Assembly (NCBI RefSeq): GCF_021887715.1
Contig: NZ_JAIQXX010000012.1
Span: 1 to 64,000, forward strand
Length of the DNA: 64,000 nucleotides
Direction: 5' to 3'
Source of the DNA: Winogradskyella immobilis
GTDB taxonomy: Bacteria; Bacteroidota; Bacteroidia; Flavobacteriales; Flavobacteriaceae
Below, piece by piece: positions 1,338 through 15,900 of the stretch. The translations under genes and the position numbers were made by a program. The notes under the pieces were generated by a model. That model saw only the letters and a program-made list of their open reading frames with translations, ran no database searches and had not been told where the DNA came from. Each line of letters begins with the position of its first letter. Position 1 is the first letter of the stretch.

Positions 1338-3491
1338 TTACAAATTATCTAACTGATTATCTGTACCATTCTCGCTAATCGTCCAAAAGAAACCGACAAA
1401 GAAAAACTGATCTGCTGCCGGTCGTAAAGCACGTCTATTAAAAACTCCATTAGCATTTGGTGTATTTGCATATTGGTAACCATTAATATTATTAAACCCT
1501 AATATGTTATTTACCGAGAAATACAGTATTTTTTGTTGACTTAGTAAATAGGCCCAATTAAAACTTAAATTGTTAAACGCTTTTGTACGTTCTCCTAAAA
1601 ATTGTGTGGTATTAGGGTTTGTATATGGACGACCAGAAGCAAAAGAATAGGCCAAACCTATTTGGCTTTTCCAATCTTCTATCCAATACTTTGTTACTAA
1701 AGACAAGTTGTGTTTGGCTGCAAAACTTGGTTGCGCTGCTATCGGAAAATTGCCATCATTACGTTCCGTATCTAAATACGAGTAACTTGCCCAATAATCT
1801 AAATTCTTGACACTTGTATTATCACGCCAAAACACATCTAACCCTTGAGCAAAACCATCACCGTTAGAGGTGAAATTAGTATTAAGACTTTCTAATGGTG
1901 TATCGAATTTAACAAGGTTATCGTAATCCTTTCTATATAATTCTGTTCTAAAGATTTTACCATTATTGACATACTGATAATTAAAAATATAATGTGATGT
2001 CTGTTGTGCTTGTAAGTCGGTTTCAAATTTCAATACATTAGAATTGGGGTTTTGAAAAAAGTTACCATACGCTAAAGACATTTGGCTATTCTTAGACGTT
2101 TTATAGGCCAATGATAATCTAGGCGCAAAATTTGAAGTTTCAAAAATAGAGCTATAGTCTAATCTTACACCTGCTTTAAGTGCTAAGGATTTAGAAAATA
2201 TAATATCTGCTTCTGTAAAAGCTGCTGTTATATTATTATTAAACCCAATAGTAGCATCTATATTAACATCTTGAAAACGCTCAGAGAAATCAGTAAGAAA
2301 TTGTTCTACACCAAAATTAAGTTTAAAACGACTACTAAATCGTTTTTTAATTTTCACTTTAGCATGTAATGAATTTTCTCTACCGGTAATATCGCTAGTC
2401 TCTATTCCTATATCGGTATCTGCTATAGTATAACTTAAACCCGTAGTTAAGCTCCAATCATTTCCCAAAATACCTTTATAAGATGCATTAGCATAAAAAT
2501 TATTATTCTTTAATTGAAATTGCAAACCATCGGTCTGGTTAATGTCTTCTTGTGTTAATTTAAAATTAGCTGTATCAAAAGCTGCGTAAAATTTTAATAA
2601 CCCACTATTGGTTTGTTGACGAAATACGGCTTCTCCTTGTGCTCCTTGATATGGATTTTCCCAATCATTTCTATCATCAAACACTTCTAAATAAGGTGCT
2701 AGATTAATGTATGTAGCGTTAATACTTAACGAAGATTTCTCCCACTTCTGAGTGTTTCCTAAACTGCCACCAAGGGTCATAACACCTACATCTGTTTTTT
2801 CTTGGTCAGGCTCATCAATAGTATTTAAAAGTAGTACACTAGATAATGCTTGTCCGTATTCTGCTGAATAACCACCTGTAGAAAAGGTAATACCATCAAA
2901 TAAAAATGGAGAATATCGACCACGCGTTGGTATATTATTTGGAGTTGGCGAAAAAGGAGTAAATACACGAATGCCATCTATAAAAATCTGAGTTTCATCA
3001 GCTGAACCTCCCCGAACAAATAGACGACCATCTTCAGCCACATTAGAAGTTCCTGGTAAGGTTTGCAATGCTCCTACAAAATCCCCTAAAGCACTTGCCG
3101 TAGTAACCACATCTAAAGAGTTTAAAACAGAAACTTTACTGTTGTCACTAGCCTCAAAAGTACCTGCAGAAATAACTACAGTATCTAAACTACTAACATC
3201 ATCTCTAAGTTTAATGATAAGCTTATTCATTTTAGATACATCTTCTGTTATAGATTTGGTTTCATAAGATAAAAACGAAATTACCAATACTTGTGTGCCT
3301 TTCTCTTCTGTAGTAAAAGAAAATTCGCCCTGTTCATTAGTAGTAGCTCCATCATAAGTGCCTTCTAAATATACATTAACAGATGCTATAGGTAAGTCTT
3401 TAGTATCTATAACTTTACCAGATATGGTAGTTTGCGCAAGAATAAAATTATTTAAAATTAAACTTAAAATAAGGATTACATGTTGTTTCAT
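1338..3491 (-). CDS. TonB-dependent outer-membrane receptor
   Basis: A 717-residue outer-membrane receptor. Residues 1-19 are a signal peptide ending LAQ. Residues 21 to about 105 are a CarboxypepD_reg-like domain (ISGKVIDTKDLPIASVNVYL...TTNEQGEFSF). The plug domain follows, with FVRGGSADETQIFIDGIRV near residues 160-178, then a TonB-type beta barrel to the end. It has no SusD partner, so it is not a classical SusCD pair; the substrate cannot be told. It is divergent from an ECF sigma gene. Its upstream region carries a direct-repeat operator shared with the LytTR operon near 13.95 kb, so it is probably in that regulon. Confidence 0.93.
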   Translation of the reverse strand: MKQHVILILSLILNNFILAQTTISGKVIDTKDLPIASVNVYLEGTYDGATTNEQGEFSFTTEEKGTQVLVISFLSYETKSITEDVSKMNKLIIKLRDDVSSLDTVVISAGTFEASDNSKVSVLNSLDVVTTASALGDFVGALQTLPGTSNVAEDGRLFVRGGSADETQIFIDGIRVFTPFSPTPNNIPTRGRYSPFLFDGITFSTGGYSAEYGQALSSVLLLNTIDEPDQEKTDVGVMTLGGSLGNTQKWEKSSLSINATYINLAPYLEVFDDRNDWENPYQGAQGEAVFRQQTNSGLLKFYAAFDTANFKLTQEDINQTDGLQFQLKNNNFYANASYKGILGNDWSLTTGLSYTIADTDIGIETSDITGRENSLHAKVKIKKRFSSRFKLNFGVEQFLTDFSERFQDVNIDATIGFNNNITAAFTEADIIFSKSLALKAGVRLDYSSIFETSNFAPRLSLAYKTSKNSQMSLAYGNFFQNPNSNVLKFETDLQAQQTSHYIFNYQYVNNGKIFRTELYRKDYDNLVKFDTPLESLNTNFTSNGDGFAQGLDVFWRDNTSVKNLDYWASYSYLDTERNDGNFPIAAQPSFAAKHNLSLVTKYWIEDWKSQIGLAYSFASGRPYTNPNTTQFLGERTKAFNNLSFNWAYLLSQQKILYFSVNNILGFNNINGYQYANTPNANGVFNRRALRPAADQFFFVGFFWTISENGTDNQLDNL

Positions 3492-3548: not shown

Positions 3549-3624
3549 GGAGCAAACTTCGTGTAGTTAGCAATATTTAGAAATTCTATATGACCGAACT
3601 GTAAAATTTTAATGATGAATTGCG
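3549..3624 (-). promoter_or_regulatory. Putative LytTR-type operator and promoter of the TonB receptor
   Basis: Two direct repeats, ACCGAACTGTA at 3593-3603 and GATGAATTGCG at 3614-3624, are phased 21 bp apart. Read toward the receptor, they precede GAAGTTTGCTCC (3560-3549), a one-mismatch form of the Bacteroidota -7 motif TAnnTTTG, with 32 bp in between. The same arrangement with identical spacing occurs at 13943-14018 in front of the signalling operon. Across the 32 bp of the repeat region 23 positions match. Paired sites about two helical turns apart are typical of LytTR regulators. Confidence 0.6.
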
Positions 3625-3777: not shown

Positions 3778-4272
3778 TTGACCAAGGAACTTGAACATAG
3801 CTTTGTAGAGCAGCTTCAAACGCATCAAAACATTGTGCATAAAGTATGTAGACTTTATACCAACAATCAAGATGCGCATAACGACTTGTTTCAGGAAATC
3901 ACGATACAATTATGGCGTGCTTTCCCGAAGTTTAGAGGTGACTCAAAGTTTAGTACATGGATGTATCGTGTGGGATTAAACACGGCGATAACTTTGTATA
4001 GAAAATCGAAACGTCGCATACAAACTGATGATTTTGATGCTATACAATTTAAAATTAAAGCTGAAGAGTATGACAATACTGAAGAAGAGCAATTAAAACT
4101 GTTATACAAAGCGGTACATCAGTTGAATGATATTGAGAAAGCTTTAGTTTTTTTGTATTTAGAAGACAAAGATTATAGAGAAATAAGTGAAACTTTAGGT
4201 ATATCTGAAGTTAATGCACGTGTGAAAATGAATCGTATAAAAAAGAAATTAAAAACAATATTAAATCCGTAA
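3778..4272 (+). CDS. ECF-type RNA polymerase sigma factor
   Basis: A 164-residue sigma-70 family protein. Region 2 lies at about residues 10-80, with DLFQEITIQLWRAFPKFRGDSKFSTWMYRV-like residues for core and -10 binding. Region 4 lies at about 105-160, with the helix-turn-helix YREISETLGISEVNARVKMNRIKKKL. It starts with TTG at 3778. No ATG lies in frame nearby, and the MTKELEHSF beginning fits the normal N-terminus of the family. A 7-bp hairpin (AACCGAA/TTCGGTT, 3742-3760) lies 17 nt upstream. The next gene is 12 bp downstream and encodes a membrane protein that could be its anti-sigma partner. Confidence 0.92.
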   Translation: MTKELEHSFVEQLQTHQNIVHKVCRLYTNNQDAHNDLFQEITIQLWRAFPKFRGDSKFSTWMYRVGLNTAITLYRKSKRRIQTDDFDAIQFKIKAEEYDNTEEEQLKLLYKAVHQLNDIEKALVFLYLEDKDYREISETLGISEVNARVKMNRIKKKLKTILNP

Positions 4273-4284
4273 TGCATAATTACT

Positions 4285-4899
4285 ATGGATGAATTAGAAT
4301 TACTAAAAAAAGACTGGCAGAGCGATAAGCCTATTTACCCTGAGCTCTCTTATGATGACATTTACAAAATGTTGCATGCCAAATCTTCAAGCATTGTAAA
4401 GTGGATATTTTACATTAGCATTATAGAGTTAAGTTTAGGGATAGCTTTAACGTTAATAAATCCAAAAATAGAGTCACCAGCTCAATTTCCTAATTGGATT
4501 GATACTTTATCCTATTTTTCTATCCCATTTATTTTAGTCTTTATGTATCTTTTTTATAAAAACTACAAAACCATTACCACTACAGATAATGTAAAATCAC
4601 TTATTAATAGTATTTTAAAAACACGACGCACAGTTAAATATTACGTATTATTTAATTTAATATTAGCAGGTATTTTCTCATCTGTACTCACTTACGTAAG
4701 CTATGTAGAAGTTAATGGCGGTCCCGATGTTTTTGAAGCCAGCGCACACTTTAAAGAATACGCTGTTCTTGGTGTTGTTATAGTCGTAGCTACTATAGGT
4801 ATTACTGCTATAATCTTTGGTATCTATTATTTAATCTATGGAATTCTTTTAAAACGTTTAAATAAAAATTATAACGAATTAAAAAAACTAGAAGTTTGA
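4285..4899 (+). CDS. Four-TM membrane protein, possible anti-sigma partner
   Basis: A 204-residue protein with a soluble N-terminal stretch of about 36 residues (MDELELLKKDWQ...), then four predicted membrane helices at about 38-58, 75-93, 118-140 and 158-188. It directly follows an ECF sigma gene in the same orientation. An N-terminal cytoplasmic tail followed by membrane helices is compatible with an anti-sigma role, but I see no recognised anti-sigma motif (no zinc-binding HxxxCxxC). The function is an inference from position only. Confidence 0.72.
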   Translation: MDELELLKKDWQSDKPIYPELSYDDIYKMLHAKSSSIVKWIFYISIIELSLGIALTLINPKIESPAQFPNWIDTLSYFSIPFILVFMYLFYKNYKTITTTDNVKSLINSILKTRRTVKYYVLFNLILAGIFSSVLTYVSYVEVNGGPDVFEASAHFKEYAVLGVVIVVATIGITAIIFGIYYLIYGILLKRLNKNYNELKKLEV

Positions 4900-10429: not shown

Positions 10430-11185
10430 CTACTCCAACCAGTTTTTAAAATCTTTTACACGTTCTCTAGCCACAATAACATCTTGCTCGTTGTAGTGGT
10501 TTAACTTTATTTGAAGGCGAGAATTTGTGTAACTCACCATATCTTTAATGGCATTAATATTAACAAAGAATTTACGGCTAACTCTAAAAAATGTATGTGG
10601 CTCTAATTCGTCTTCAAGTTGATCTAAAGTATGATCTAGAAGATAATTTCTGCCTTCCTTAGTATAAGCATAAGTGCCTTTATTTTCGCTATAAAAACAT
10701 TCTATATCTTCAATATTAATCAACTTTAAATGCTGACCTACTTTTACAGAAAATCTTTTTTTATACTCGCGTTCAATAGGGTTGATTAATAACTTTTTAA
10801 TGTCATTAAAATCTAAAGTTACGGCCTGTTTTTGCGGAGTTAATTCTTTAAACTTTGTTACCGCTTTTTTAAGATCGTCTTGATCTATAGGCTTCAACAA
10901 ATAATCTATACTATTAAGTTTAAAAGCTTGTAATGCATACTCATCGTAAGCTGTTGTAAAGATTACTGCTGAGTTGATATCTATAGCTTCAAAAATCTCA
11001 AATGACAATCCATCACTCAACTGAATATCTAAAAATATTAAATCTGGATGTTCATTATTCTGAAACCATTCAATAGATTCTTCAACAGAATGTAACATGG
11101 TGTTGGTTTCAAAATCTAAACTTGTTAGCATTCGTTGTAAGCGTCTTGCTGATGGTTTTTCGTCTTCTATGATTATAATGTTCAT
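10430..11185 (-). CDS. LytTR-family response regulator
   Basis: A 251-residue response regulator. The receiver domain (about 1-115) has acidic E7/D8, phospho-acceptor Asp53 (LIFLDIQLSDG), Thr77/78 and Lys98 (LLKPI). The LytTR DNA-binding domain occupies about 145-250 (FSVKVGQHLKLINIEDIECFYSENK...FFRVSRKFFVNINAI). It is the last gene of a five-gene operon with a LytS-type kinase, its presumed partner. LytTR proteins bind paired direct repeats. A fitting pair lies in front of this operon and another in front of the TonB receptor at 3.5 kb. Confidence 0.95.
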   Translation of the reverse strand: MNIIIIEDEKPSARRLQRMLTSLDFETNTMLHSVEESIEWFQNNEHPDLIFLDIQLSDGLSFEIFEAIDINSAVIFTTAYDEYALQAFKLNSIDYLLKPIDQDDLKKAVTKFKELTPQKQAVTLDFNDIKKLLINPIEREYKKRFSVKVGQHLKLINIEDIECFYSENKGTYAYTKEGRNYLLDHTLDQLEDELEPHTFFRVSRKFFVNINAIKDMVSYTNSRLQIKLNHYNEQDVIVARERVKDFKNWLE

Positions 11186-11238: not shown

Positions 11239-11583
11239 CTACTCCCAACGTTTTTCTTCTTTATCCATATACTCCTTTACTTTACGTTCTTCCCAATTTT
11301 TTCCGAATAAAAAATCGGGACCAAATACACCCAGAAAGTGAAAGAATAAACCAATACCCCAAAATATAGCTGTTGAAAACGAAGCAAAGCTAAAATAACC
11401 TTCGCCTGAATTTGAGCCAATTACAATAATTAAAAAGATGTTGACAATAACATAACTTACTAAATGCCAGTAAAATCCTTTAAGTTTATCAAGTTTCTTT
11501 TTAGCTCTAATATAAGCTTCTTCTTTATAATAACGTTTTTCATCTGTATGATCGTTATAGGGTTCTATATTATATTTTTTCAT
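11239..11583 (-). CDS. 2TM domain protein
   Basis: A 114-residue protein of the 2TM-domain family: charged N-terminus (RAKKKLDKLKGFYWHL), two membrane helices at about 40-56 and 67-90, then the conserved FLFGKNWEERKVKEYMDKEEK tail. Such domains are common beside Bacteroidota LytS/LytTR systems. It is paralogous to the next gene and to the C-terminal domain of the kinase. Its role is unknown and may be in membrane sensing or assembly with the kinase. Confidence 0.85.
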   Translation of the reverse strand: MKKYNIEPYNDHTDEKRYYKEEAYIRAKKKLDKLKGFYWHLVSYVIVNIFLIIVIGSNSGEGYFSFASFSTAIFWGIGLFFHFLGVFGPDFLFGKNWEERKVKEYMDKEEKRWE

Positions 11584-11588
11584 CTGTT

Positions 11589-11921
11589 TTAGTTGTAATG
11601 TTTTAAATTTTCATCTTCTTCATCCATAAATTTACGTAATTGTTCTTCCTCCCAATTCTTGCCTAAAAAATAATCAAACCCGTAAACCGAAAAGGCATGA
11701 AATCCTATACCAACTCCCCAAGTTAACCATAGTGCTATCGTTGCAAAATCGAATATGGCTTCGTTTAATGTTTCTCCATTTTCTAGGTTCTTTACTATTT
11801 TAATAGCTGTTATAACTGCATTGACACAAACATAAACGATAACGTGTATATAAAAACCTCTTAGTCTATCGACCTTTGTCTTTGCTCTTAAATATTTTTG
11901 ATCTTCAATATATCTTCCCAT
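11589..11921 (-). CDS. 2TM domain protein
   Basis: A 110-residue paralogue of the neighbouring 2TM protein, with RAKTKVDRLRGFYIHVIVYV, a second helix near 68-88 and the terminal FLGKNWEEEQLRKFMDEEDE. It lies 5 bp upstream of the second 2TM gene and 12 bp downstream of the kinase gene. The three 2TM units of this operon share the same helix-loop-helix and (G)xxWE tail, so they arose by duplication. Confidence 0.85.
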   Translation of the reverse strand: MGRYIEDQKYLRAKTKVDRLRGFYIHVIVYVCVNAVITAIKIVKNLENGETLNEAIFDFATIALWLTWGVGIGFHAFSVYGFDYFLGKNWEEEQLRKFMDEEDENLKHYN

Positions 11922-11933
11922 AACTATTGCTTT

Positions 11934-13283
11934 TTAATTCCAGCGTTTTTCTTCTTCTTCCTCTTGCATAAATTTTTCAATTTTACGCTTTTCCCATTCG
12001 CTTCCTAATACACCATCATTAACATAGACTTTATAGGCATGAAAACCTAACCCTAATCCCCAACCTAACATTGGAAACCAAAACCATTGAATTGTATGCG
12101 GTGTATAACGGTACCATATAAATACAAGAAATGGTATAACTAAACAGTATGAGATTAGACTGTAATAAAATTCTTTTAATTCTTCTACACGTTTACGTGC
12201 GCGGACATAACTACTGTCGTATGCTGATTTAGGCTCTATTCTTTTCATAATTGATAATTGTTTTGTGAGCATTGGTATTGCAACTGCAAAGTGCTTTGCT
12301 CCTTGATTGATGTTTACTTTTTTATCTGATAATAATTGGTAGCGCTGTTTAATATTATCTAGACCTACTCCACTGCTCTTTTTAACAATTTGCTTAGGTT
12401 GTAAATTATTTTCTACAACTAAGCTACCACTGTCTTCGTATATTTTAATATGTAATGGTTTACTACTCGTCACCATATTGTGTTTTACCGCATTCTCTAA
12501 CAATAATTGCAACGATAAAGGCACTACTTTACTCTCTGGATTAGATGCGTGTTCTGGGATTTCAAAAATAATACTGTCTTCAAATCGCATTTTTAATAAT
12601 GACATGTACGTCCTAGCAAAATCTAACTCTTCATCCACAGTAATTAAATCTTTATTTTTTTGTTCTAAAACATAGCGATATACTTTAGATAAAGATGTTG
12701 TAAACTGTTGCGCATTCTCAGGGTTTTCTTCTATTAAACTCGTTAGTACATTAAGACTATTAAACAAAAAATGCGGATCTAATTGATTCTTTAAAGCATC
12801 AAACTTAGCACTTGCTGTACCCGCAATAACTTTCTGTTCTTTGATTTTATTTTTTTGATAACGATTATAGAAATAAATAATATGAAAAACTGAAACAACA
12901 CTCAACGTCATCCATAATCCAAAAGAATAACCACTCCAACTTTCATTCTTTATAAAATCATCGAATGAGTTATTATGAATAATCATTGATATTCCAGCTC
13001 TTAAAATGAAAATACCTATTAATGTAATTATTGTAGATCCGATAATCCCAGACACAACACGTTTAACCGTTTCTCCTTTTTTCCATTGCCGTTTTTCCAT
13101 ATAATTAAAAAACGCCATATTACTATATCCTAATACAAAAGAATAAACTTGGTAAAGAACAAAATCAAATAAAAATTCATTTACACTTTTAAAATTAAAT
13201 CCACCAAAGATTCCATTACCTATAACAAAAACTAGGCACCCAATAATGAAAGTTAAAATGATATCTTGAGTTGATTTTTTCAT
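11934..13283 (-). CDS. LytS-like sensor histidine kinase fused to a 2TM domain
   Basis: A 449-residue kinase with four membrane helices in about 10-140. The His_kinase block has the phospho-acceptor in QLDPHFLFNSLNVL (His171). The HATPase_c domain shows LLLENAVKHNM (Asn263) and a G box around GVGLDNIKQRY. After residue 345 a complete 2TM domain is appended (MKRIEPKSAYDSSYVRARKRV to the LGSEWEKRKIEKFMQEE tail). The junction contains an internal Met346 that looks like a former start codon, so the fusion may be recent. It pairs with the LytTR regulator at the end of the operon. Confidence 0.93.
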   Translation of the reverse strand: MKKSTQDIILTFIIGCLVFVIGNGIFGGFNFKSVNEFLFDFVLYQVYSFVLGYSNMAFFNYMEKRQWKKGETVKRVVSGIIGSTIITLIGIFILRAGISMIIHNNSFDDFIKNESWSGYSFGLWMTLSVVSVFHIIYFYNRYQKNKIKEQKVIAGTASAKFDALKNQLDPHFLFNSLNVLTSLIEENPENAQQFTTSLSKVYRYVLEQKNKDLITVDEELDFARTYMSLLKMRFEDSIIFEIPEHASNPESKVVPLSLQLLLENAVKHNMVTSSKPLHIKIYEDSGSLVVENNLQPKQIVKKSSGVGLDNIKQRYQLLSDKKVNINQGAKHFAVAIPMLTKQLSIMKRIEPKSAYDSSYVRARKRVEELKEFYYSLISYCLVIPFLVFIWYRYTPHTIQWFWFPMLGWGLGLGFHAYKVYVNDGVLGSEWEKRKIEKFMQEEEEEKRWN

Positions 13284-13290
13284 AATATTT

Positions 13291-13923
13291 TTATTTACAT
13301 GTTTTTAAAACTTGTTCAGCACGTTCTTTTCCCCAATTAGGATGCAACTTACTTTCTGATTTAAAGTTAGTAAAAAGTTCTATGGACCTTTCAATTTCTA
13401 TGCAATAAGGTGCTGTGTCCTTACCAAAAAACTTTGCACTTCCCATATCCCAATCTACTTTTCCAAAAACAGCTCTAGGGTTTTTAGCATCAATAGCCAT
13501 AGCTTTAGCATATAATTCTGAAACTTTATTGGCGTACTTCATTCCATATTTCATACCATCAAAAGCAACCCAATTAGTAAACACTTGTGCTTGCATTACT
13601 AATAGTTCTGCATTATTTTCGCTTCTGCTAAATGCAATATCTAAGTGCTGTTGTGCTTTGTCTAACTGTGCTTTAAGAACAGCTTCATCTTTCTCATTCC
13701 AACTCTTTAAACTATTAATTTGAGCAATGTAATAATTTGGCAACCATGCTTCGGTTTCTGCTTTAGAAATACGCTCAAATAAATTTTGTGCTTCTTCTAA
13801 CTTATTGGCTTTCCATAATTCAAAGGCTTTTTGCATGCCTTTTTCGTAATTAGATTGTGCTTCAATATTAGGTGTTACTGCTCCTAAGATTATTACGACT
13901 AAAATTTTCACTAAACTGTTCAT
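13291..13923 (-). CDS. TPR-like periplasmic protein, first gene of the signalling operon
   Basis: A 210-residue protein with a signal peptide (MNSLVKILVVIILGAVTPNIEAQ) and TPR-like helical repeats, for example KAFELWKANKLEEAQNLFE (about residues 31-49). It lies 7 bp from the kinase gene and is the first gene of the operon. It probably sits in the periplasm and could sense or relay a signal, though this is inference. The operator pair and -7-like element lie 20-95 bp upstream of its start. Confidence 0.82.
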   Translation of the reverse strand: MNSLVKILVVIILGAVTPNIEAQSNYEKGMQKAFELWKANKLEEAQNLFERISKAETEAWLPNYYIAQINSLKSWNEKDEAVLKAQLDKAQQHLDIAFSRSENNAELLVMQAQVFTNWVAFDGMKYGMKYANKVSELYAKAMAIDAKNPRAVFGKVDWDMGSAKFFGKDTAPYCIEIERSIELFTNFKSESKLHPNWGKERAEQVLKTCK

Positions 13924-13942: not shown

Positions 13943-14018
13943 GAAGCAAATATCTTTTTAAAGTCAAATTTTAAAAAATAGGAATTACCGAATTGTAGAA
14001 AATTATGGACGAATTGTA
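13943..14018 (-). promoter_or_regulatory. Putative autoregulatory LytTR operator and promoter
   Basis: Direct repeats ACCGAATTGTA (13987-13997) and GACGAATTGTA (14008-14018) are spaced exactly 21 bp. Read toward the operon, GATATTTGCTTC (13954-13943) resembles the Bacteroidota -7 motif. It is separated from the repeats by 32 bp, the same distance as at the TonB receptor promoter (3549-3624). In both places a TTG lies 10 nt upstream of the -7-like element. The repeats also lie upstream of the divergent serine hydrolase gene and could serve both directions. Confidence 0.62.
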
Positions 14019-14100
14019 ATTCTTTTGAAAATAGATTGAAAAATTGGTAACTTATTCACGTTTAATAGGACTCATAGTCATTAACAAAAATCAACCAAAA

Positions 14101-15900
14101 ATGAAACGCTTTTTATTACTACTAATCACTCTTTGTTTTGCATCATCTTTTGCGCAAACCGATAAACGTCTTAAAGGTTTAGAGGATGAACTTAATAAAA
14201 TATTAGAAATTACAAAAACTGCTGGTTTTGCCGTAGCAGTTGTTGAAGGAGATAAAGTAATCTACAATAAAGGTTTTGGTTACAGAGATTACGAAAATAA
14301 GATCCCTGTAGATGCTAATACCTTATTTGCTATTGGGTCATCTACCAAAGCATTTACTTCTGCCATATTAGGAAAATTAAGAGCTGACGACAAATTATCT
14401 TTTGATGATAGTCCAAGAAAATATATTCCTGAATTAGAGTTTTATAATGATAATTTAAACAACAATATTATCATTAAAGATTTAATGCGTCATAGCACAG
14501 GAATTCCAAGGCATGATGGAGCTTGGTATTTCTTTCCTTCGCATAATAAAGACAGCTTAGTACAGCGTATTAAATACCATGAGCCATTTACAGGCTTACG
14601 CCAAAGATGGTATTACAATAATTTTATGTTTTTAACCCAAGGAGTTATTGCTGAAAAGATTACAGGTAAATCCTGGGAAGACAACTTAGACGAGATGTTC
14701 TTTAAACCATTAAATATGAATAGAACCAACTCCGATATAAAAGCTATGAAGTCTGCCTCTAATGCATCTATAGGTTATGAACTTAAAGACGATAAAATCT
14801 CTAAAATGGATTATTACGACATTGCTGGAATGTCTCCTGCAGGTTCTATAAACAGTAGTGTTAATGATATGACTAAATGGATGACACTATGGCTTAATAA
14901 AGGAAAACATAATGAAGAAGAGCTGTTACCAGAAAGTTACATACAAGAAGCTACAGGTTCTCAGATGGTAGTGTCTTCTGGTATTCCTAGTAAAGAATTA
15001 CCAGACATGCATTTTGCTAATTACGGTTATGGATGGTTTACACACTCGTATAAAGGACATTACGTAGCTGAGCACGGAGGTAATATCGACGGATTTTCTA
15101 CCAATGTTGCTTTATATCCTACAGATAGCCTAGGCATAGTTGTTTTAGCCAACCAAAATGGATCTGCTACACCTAACTTAGTCCGTAATACTGTTGCAGA
15201 TTATGTTTTAAAACTAAAGAAAACAGGATGGGCTAGTAAACATAAAAAAGATCTTGAAGAAGCTGAAAAAGCACAAGAAGAAGTTGAAGAAAGTAGTGAA
15301 AGCGCACAGATACCAAATACAAAACCTTCGCATAGTAATGTTGATTATACAGGTGTATATTCTAACAAAGGTTATGGTGCAGTAACTATTACTACTAAAA
15401 ACGATTCTTTATTTACCATTTTAAATAAAAAACTTAATTATCTACATCATTTTCATTACGATACTTTTGAACTTATTAGTGTCGTAAAAGGTAAAGTAGA
15501 CACAACAGATTATGGACAATCGCTTAAAGCAACATTCAGCACTGGTGACTCTGGAGATATCGATGGTTTTAAAGTTGCTATTGAACCTACAATAGATCCT
15601 ATTTTCTTTAAACGTTCACCAATTGCATTAGATGTAGATTCTAGTGATTTAGAACCCTATACTGGTGATTATGAGATTTCTGGTGCTACTATCAAATTTT
15701 ATCTCAAAGGAGGAAAAACATTGTTTCTCTTTGTCCCTGGTCAACCAGAATATGAATTATTACCAACAGACAAACATAAATTTACACTTAAAGGTATAGA
15801 TGGCTTTAAAGTAGAATTTATAGAAAATGATAAAGGAACTATTAAAGAAGCAAAATTATTTCAACCTAATGGTACATTTACTGTAAAACGAAAAGAATAA
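14101..15900 (+). CDS. Serine hydrolase (class C beta-lactamase/DD-peptidase fold)
   Basis: A 599-residue protein with a signal peptide ending SSFAQ (1-19). The beta-lactamase-fold domain at about 25-380 shows SSTK (residues 80-83, the SxxK nucleophile motif), YYNN (171-174, the YxN motif) and EHGGN (the KTG-equivalent HxG). A charged coiled linker follows near 385-415, then a C-terminal DUF3471-like region. It is probably a periplasmic or surface esterase or peptidase. ATG at 14101 is chosen because it starts the signal peptide. It is divergent from the LytTR operon and shares its operator region. Confidence 0.92.
   Translation: MKRFLLLLITLCFASSFAQTDKRLKGLEDELNKILEITKTAGFAVAVVEGDKVIYNKGFGYRDYENKIPVDANTLFAIGSSTKAFTSAILGKLRADDKLSFDDSPRKYIPELEFYNDNLNNNIIIKDLMRHSTGIPRHDGAWYFFPSHNKDSLVQRIKYHEPFTGLRQRWYYNNFMFLTQGVIAEKITGKSWEDNLDEMFFKPLNMNRTNSDIKAMKSASNASIGYELKDDKISKMDYYDIAGMSPAGSINSSVNDMTKWMTLWLNKGKHNEEELLPESYIQEATGSQMVVSSGIPSKELPDMHFANYGYGWFTHSYKGHYVAEHGGNIDGFSTNVALYPTDSLGIVVLANQNGSATPNLVRNTVADYVLKLKKTGWASKHKKDLEEAEKAQEEVEESSESAQIPNTKPSHSNVDYTGVYSNKGYGAVTITTKNDSLFTILNKKLNYLHHFHYDTFELISVVKGKVDTTDYGQSLKATFSTGDSGDIDGFKVAIEPTIDPIFFKRSPIALDVDSSDLEPYTGDYEISGATIKFYLKGGKTLFLFVPGQPEYELLPTDKHKFTLKGIDGFKVEFIENDKGTIKEAKLFQPNGTFTVKRKE

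Follow-up and report, generated by a model that had tools for sequence, protein, structure and literature searches.

In the ComDE system of Streptococcus pneumoniae and S. mitis, the ComE box has the form aCAnTTcaG-12-aCAgTTgaG, and 31-32 bp lie between it and the -10 box in most of the rows presented, with distances of 38 and 42 bp elsewhere. At P2/P3 of Staphylococcus aureus, AgrA is described as a dimer that occupies two direct repeats at about -60 of the promoter of its own operon, and the residues that contact DNA are R198, N201 and S202. The LytTR Regulatory Systems HdrRM and BrsRM activate their own operons via repeats that are mostly 12 bp apart and situated just upstream of -35, and similar operons of Bacteroides carry 11-bp repeats 11 bp apart and encode regulators with transmembrane segments. 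In Flavobacterium, the -7 box recognized by sigma-A spans -12 to -5, and in Flavobacterium johnsoniae the neighboring genes FJOH_RS09515 (LytTR regulator) and FJOH_RS09520 (histidine kinase), possible orthologs of the regulator and kinase described below, were repeatedly mutated in laboratory-evolved lines (PMC10197871). This background is taken from the literature (PMC10197871, PMC11237479, PMC5395568, PMC6193735, PMC9723704, PMC4227749, PMC6001120). In the open-access full text that was searched, no description of the operator or regulon presented below was found, nor was any paper on a LytTR regulon in Flavobacteriaceae; the three papers found on DUF2141 concern, by their titles, Sphingomonadales, Qipengyuania and marine metagenomes.

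The window analyzed here is a stretch of 64,000 nucleotides from Winogradskyella immobilis, in which open reading frames of at least 80 aa were listed. The initial annotation of this stretch had described two repeats 21 bp apart with a -7-like box at 32 bp upstream of a LytTR operon, and had noted that the same layout recurs at 3549-3624; the positions and distances were exact at both places. The repeat copies ACCGAATTGTA (13987-13997) and GACGAATTGTA (14008-14018) have a period of 21 bp, and 32 bp (13955-13986) separate the repeats from GATATTTGCTTC on the minus strand (13954-13943). At the second site, ACCGAACTG is found at 3593, GATGAATTG at 3614 and GAAGTTTGCTCC on the minus strand at 3560-3549, again with a gap of 32 bp. 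Two direct repeats of about 9 bp with a 21-bp period, as expected of a LytTR-type operator, are therefore present upstream of the operon. The first gene of this operon, ahead of the kinase, is the TPR-like gene, which had not been included in the initial annotation. The receiver and LytTR domains of the regulator both score above the Pfam cut-offs, as in a LytTR two-component response regulator. Its FhRhHRS-type motif reads FFRVSRK, in which R201, R204 and K205 are invariant among 21 orthologs and match, by eye and through the shared motif, the positions of the three AgrA contacts. When solved structures were searched with the regulator alignment, the 60 matches listed of 62 were all confined to the receiver end. 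The coordinates are collected in Table 1.

Table 1. Features of the two sites, the LytTR operon and the second-site target in the window.
Feature	Position	Strand	Remark
Distal repeat CAATTCGTC	14008..14016	-	Register ACAATTCGT = 14009-14017
Proximal repeat CAATTCGGT	13987..13995	-	Register ACAATTCGG = 13988-13996
T-tract at about -36 to -31, where the -33 element is expected	13973..13978	-	Numbered from the position of the -7 box
Predicted -7 box GATATTTG, consensus TAnnTTTG	13947..13954	-	32 bp past proximal CAATTCGGT
First gene of the operon, 210-aa TPR-like, putatively exported protein	13291..13923	-	Provisional name; no Pfam match
Histidine kinase (PF06580) with C-terminal 2TM domain (PF13239)	11934..13283	-	Pfam
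2TM-domain protein	11589..11921	-	Pfam
2TM-domain protein	11239..11583	-	Pfam
LytTR response regulator (PF00072 + PF04397)	10430..11185	-	Pfam; probable binder of the site
Distal repeat CAATTCATC, second site	3614..3622	-	
Proximal repeat CAGTTCGGT, second site	3593..3601	-	
Predicted -7 box GAAGTTTG, second site	3553..3560	-	32 bp downstream
717-aa TonB-dependent receptor with CarboxypepD_reg-like domain	1338..3491	-	Predicted target of the second site

When the site is read in the sense of the operon and in the ComE register, it takes the form ACARTTCRT-N12-ACARTTCGG, followed by 33 bp and NAnnTTTG, compared with mostly 31-32 bp to the -10 box for the ComE sites presented. The 9-bp repeats, the 21-bp period and the (here predicted) co-regulation of several operons are shared with ComDE; unlike ComDE, the present system has a Bacteroidota -7 promoter and a PF06580 kinase with a 2TM domain. 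The AgrA sites share the placement of the repeats near -60, but differ in repeat sequence and in the content of the operon. In LytTR Regulatory Systems of the S. mutans type, an inhibitor membrane protein replaces receiver and kinase, whereas the present system is a two-component system in which the regulator has a receiver and the kinase is encoded next to it; it also differs from the Bacteroides operons in the features given for these above. The general consensus for a LytTR half-site is [TA][AC][CA]GTTN[AG][TG]. By eye, either strand of the site agrees with this consensus at about 6 of the 9 positions, and the ComE consensus fits the site more closely.

The pattern ACCGAAYTG-N12-GAYGAATTG, at up to three mismatches, was matched twice in the window, both times with 0 mismatches; because the pattern was derived from these two sites, scans of the genome and the family constitute the independent evidence. 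AT-rich intergenic DNA is rich in short repeats, and although 100 shuffled versions of the window gave a mean of 0.08 matches at this threshold, two matches were reached in one of them, as they would be if the repeats had arisen by chance. That explanation was refuted, and its probability is now negligible. Among 149 Flavobacteriaceae genomes, each from a different genus, the pattern CARTTCRTC-N12-CARTTCGGT at up to one mismatch gave 131 listed matches in 77 genomes, compared with a single match for the reversed control, and the genome and phylum scans agree with this result. When 296 genomes were drawn from the phylum, a longer pattern that includes the -7 box at its fixed place was matched in 16 of them (control, 0). 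All 16 belong to the same family, which supplied 30 genomes of the draw, and none of the other 266 genomes was matched; in G257, one of the matched genomes, the spacer is unusual and the match could be due to chance.

The initial annotation had also proposed a genome-wide search for patterns of this type. In the genome of W. immobilis, ACCGAAYTG-N12-GAYGAATTG at up to three mismatches gave 12 matches, compared with five for the reversed-pattern control, and the expected layout held for part of these: five lie between genes and are followed at exactly 32 bp by a -7-like box (TTTG in four, TAAATTAG in the fifth), whereas the other seven lie inside long frames, are without TTTG at the place of the box and were set aside as chance matches. 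The five intergenic sites precede the operon, the TonB receptor, a DUF2141 protein (L050), a 109-aa ORF (C33) and a 186-aa protein without a Pfam match (L054), the last being the weakest of the five with three mismatches and the box TAAATTAG. The site before the 109-aa ORF (C33:98665), which has no Pfam match, is adjoined by a frame for a LytTR domain (L007, G000:C33:98347-98604) that contains an internal TAA and whose open part is short (122 aa), and the site points away from this frame. Divergent to the TonB receptor of the second site is a sigma-70 family (ECF-like) gene (3778-4899, plus strand, listed with a TTG start), a relative of which is found near the operon in four of a set of 80 loci from the family.

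Conservation of the site at orthologous operons was assessed within the genus and beyond it. The TPR protein is present in 35 of 36 same-genus relatives, and in all 30 loci read from the 36 genomes with a match, that of W. immobilis included, the repeat pair occurs at up to four mismatches upstream of the orthologous operon, where it either precedes the TPR gene directly or sits further up before another gene that precedes the TPR gene. This intervening gene is often of the DUF2141 type, by eye in the same-genus loci and also in the 80-locus set. In other genera, the best-scoring 29 of 87 matches were read, and all 29 loci have the pair, at 0 to 4 mismatches; the marginal case, L077, has four. 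In the 80-locus set, the site lies within 6 kb upstream of the LytTR gene in 77 loci, in two of which the copy picked precedes the TonB gene, and TTTG is at the exact offset in 74 of the 77, with the script favoring candidates that have TTTG. No site was found in L273, which has little upstream DNA, or in L275, and the L295 locus is incomplete. When the 77 loci were aligned on the site, the blocks ACAaTTCaTC and ACAaTTCgGT, a TTTT at about -36 to -33 and GATATTTG stood out, with little conserved between them. In eight of the 80 loci, all without a TPR match, the site directly precedes the kinase-2TM-LytTR genes, and in further genomes without a TPR match, such as G127, G130, G157, G201 and G084, the LytTR gene follows the site on the same strand at a distance of about 2 to 2.5 kb. 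These data indicate that the site goes with the kinase and the regulator, and not with the TPR gene.

To relate the site to the regulator, orthologs were sought in the 149 family genomes. An E-value of up to 1e-50 gave 120 genomes with a LytTR ortholog, of which G066 and G081 were dropped because their best match was 44% identical, and 118 genomes with an ortholog above 240 bits remained. The site at up to one mismatch is present in 76 of these 118 genomes, compared with one of the 31 without an ortholog (Fisher p 1.6e-10). At this threshold the site is missing from 42 of the 118, and in all five of the 42 that were read (G091, G095, G125, G131 and G166) a weaker site with two to three mismatches was found. 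It should be noted that small genomes are common among those that lack the regulator, and the co-occurrence therefore partly tracks lineage. In the sole genome with the site but without the ortholog (G065, L194), a remnant of the TPR gene that contains two stops lies about 3 kb from the site on the same contig and is possibly a decaying copy of the system. The genome of W. immobilis encodes 15 LytTR domains, the next paralog of the operon regulator is 42% identical to it, and some targets are far from the operon; sharing of sites is therefore conceivable, and another LytTR paralog or activator could bind the operator while the LytTR protein of the operon acts elsewhere. This is quite unlikely, however, because the site accompanies the operon of this regulator across genera, even in loci without the TPR gene, and its presence tracks the ortholog of the operon regulator, the one protein compared in this way.

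The genes downstream of the site were then grouped for 92 of the 131 family matches, namely the 79 that are not within 6.5 kb upstream of a LytTR gene on its strand and 13 that are more than 4 kb upstream. The ORF rule gave a downstream gene for 79 of the 92 sites and none for 13, of which 11 are within coding frames. Target groups were defined as single-linkage blastp clusters; Pfam searches covered one or two representatives of the DUF2141, DUF2807, PF00144 and ABC groups, as well as the TonB receptor of the window. The largest group comprises 35 sites in 35 genomes that precede relatives of the 717-aa TonB receptor, so that the second site in the window, which is included, represents one case of a recurrent target, a point that had not been recognized in the initial annotation. 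The other groups are DUF2141-type proteins (19 sites), DUF2807-type lipoproteins (eight) and membrane-anchored PF00144-type proteins (three); ABC ATPases, TPR genes and a 205-aa family account for two sites each, and eight targets are singletons. The 13 sites without a downstream ORF and the singletons L171 and L190, which are inside long frames, are considered chance matches or unclear. Of the 62 TonB, DUF2141 and DUF2807 sites, for which there was no selection for TTTG, 50 have this motif exactly 32 bp on, one has it at 33 bp and one at 24 bp, and the remaining offsets between 20 and 51 gave no further case; 12 of these sites outside the operon are thus without TTTG at the 32-bp place. In the 80-locus set, a TonB gene lies within the examined DNA in 17 loci and a DUF2141 gene in 30.

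A beta-lactamase-family serine hydrolase (Pfam) is encoded divergently to the operon, and the initial annotation had suggested that the site possibly acts on this gene as well. Such a bidirectional operator would be in keeping with the conservation of the arrangement in some lineages, where the hydrolase is the divergent neighbor in 16 of the 80 loci (a 17th match, L287, was discounted at 20% identity), and with the three-protein target cluster found elsewhere, which is also of the PF00144 type according to Pfam on one member. The suggestion nevertheless fared poorly and is improbable: the site is present in 77 of the 80 loci, at least 60 of the 80 have it without a hydrolase neighbor in the examined DNA, and neither the window nor 15 of the 16 loci have a TAnnTTTG on the hydrolase strand between the site and the start of the gene. 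What recurs ahead of the hydrolase instead (by eye) is another element, GTAACTT and then a TACTAA-like sequence, and separate control of this gene, perhaps via another sigma factor, is likelier. The element is found at 14017-14103 on the plus strand and in the 16 hydrolase loci, its second half being weaker in the window, and it may be a promoter for an alternative sigma factor of the ECF type.

When numbered from the predicted -7 box, the repeats in the ACA register lie at about -75 to -67 and -54 to -46, with their center near -60. The two half-sites would be on one face of the helix, about -75 to -46 from the predicted transcription start, just upstream of a -33 region that is rich in T and of a sigma-A -7 box of the form NAnnTTTG. 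This geometry matches that of ComE, AgrA and the LytTR Regulatory Systems, and the best reading is therefore a site for an activator with positive feedback. Autorepression is common among regulators generally, and the LytTR protein might repress its own operon from this site; however, this is unlikely, because the repeats are not over the -33/-7 region but upstream of it, at the place where ComE and AgrA act, and the -33 region appears, as in activator-dependent promoters, to be without a good TTG. The repeat pair is thus very probably the operator of the LytTR regulator at 10430-11185, which would activate its own operon and a small envelope regulon. Conservation, co-occurrence with the regulator and geometry lend good support to the proposal in the initial annotation that the kinase/2TM/LytTR operon has an autoregulatory operator to which its LytTR protein would bind. 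In the mechanism that we propose, the membrane kinase would phosphorylate the LytTR regulator, and the phosphorylated regulator would bind both repeats as a dimer and recruit RNA polymerase. This recruitment would switch on the TPR-kinase-2TM-2TM-LytTR operon, resulting in positive feedback, and from the same type of promoter separate envelope genes, including the TonB-dependent receptor, would be turned on; a role of the regulon in the envelope is suggested by the types of its targets.

Altogether, these data point to a genuine operator that looks functional and to a clean regulon across the family, with a putative mechanism of a known kind. Its fixed 9-12-9-32-box geometry allows targets to be annotated in other genomes of the family, and its close likeness to the ComE box suggests that the same LytTR architecture works with a very different Bacteroidota promoter. 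As a tentative further possibility, the system may act as master switch for an envelope response that is shared throughout the Flavobacteriaceae and has not been described, in which a 2TM kinase and a LytTR regulator, with positive feedback and the geometry of Gram-positive competence and quorum systems, drive a dedicated TonB receptor and the DUF2141 and DUF2807 surface proteins; such a switch could be bistable and produce an all-or-none state of the cell surface. The finding provides an operator that is precise and can be tested, for a two-component system with orthologs of its regulator in 118 of the 149 genera sampled from this large family, and a single predicted regulon would link DUF2141, DUF2807 and 2TM proteins, several of them of unknown function, with a TonB receptor.
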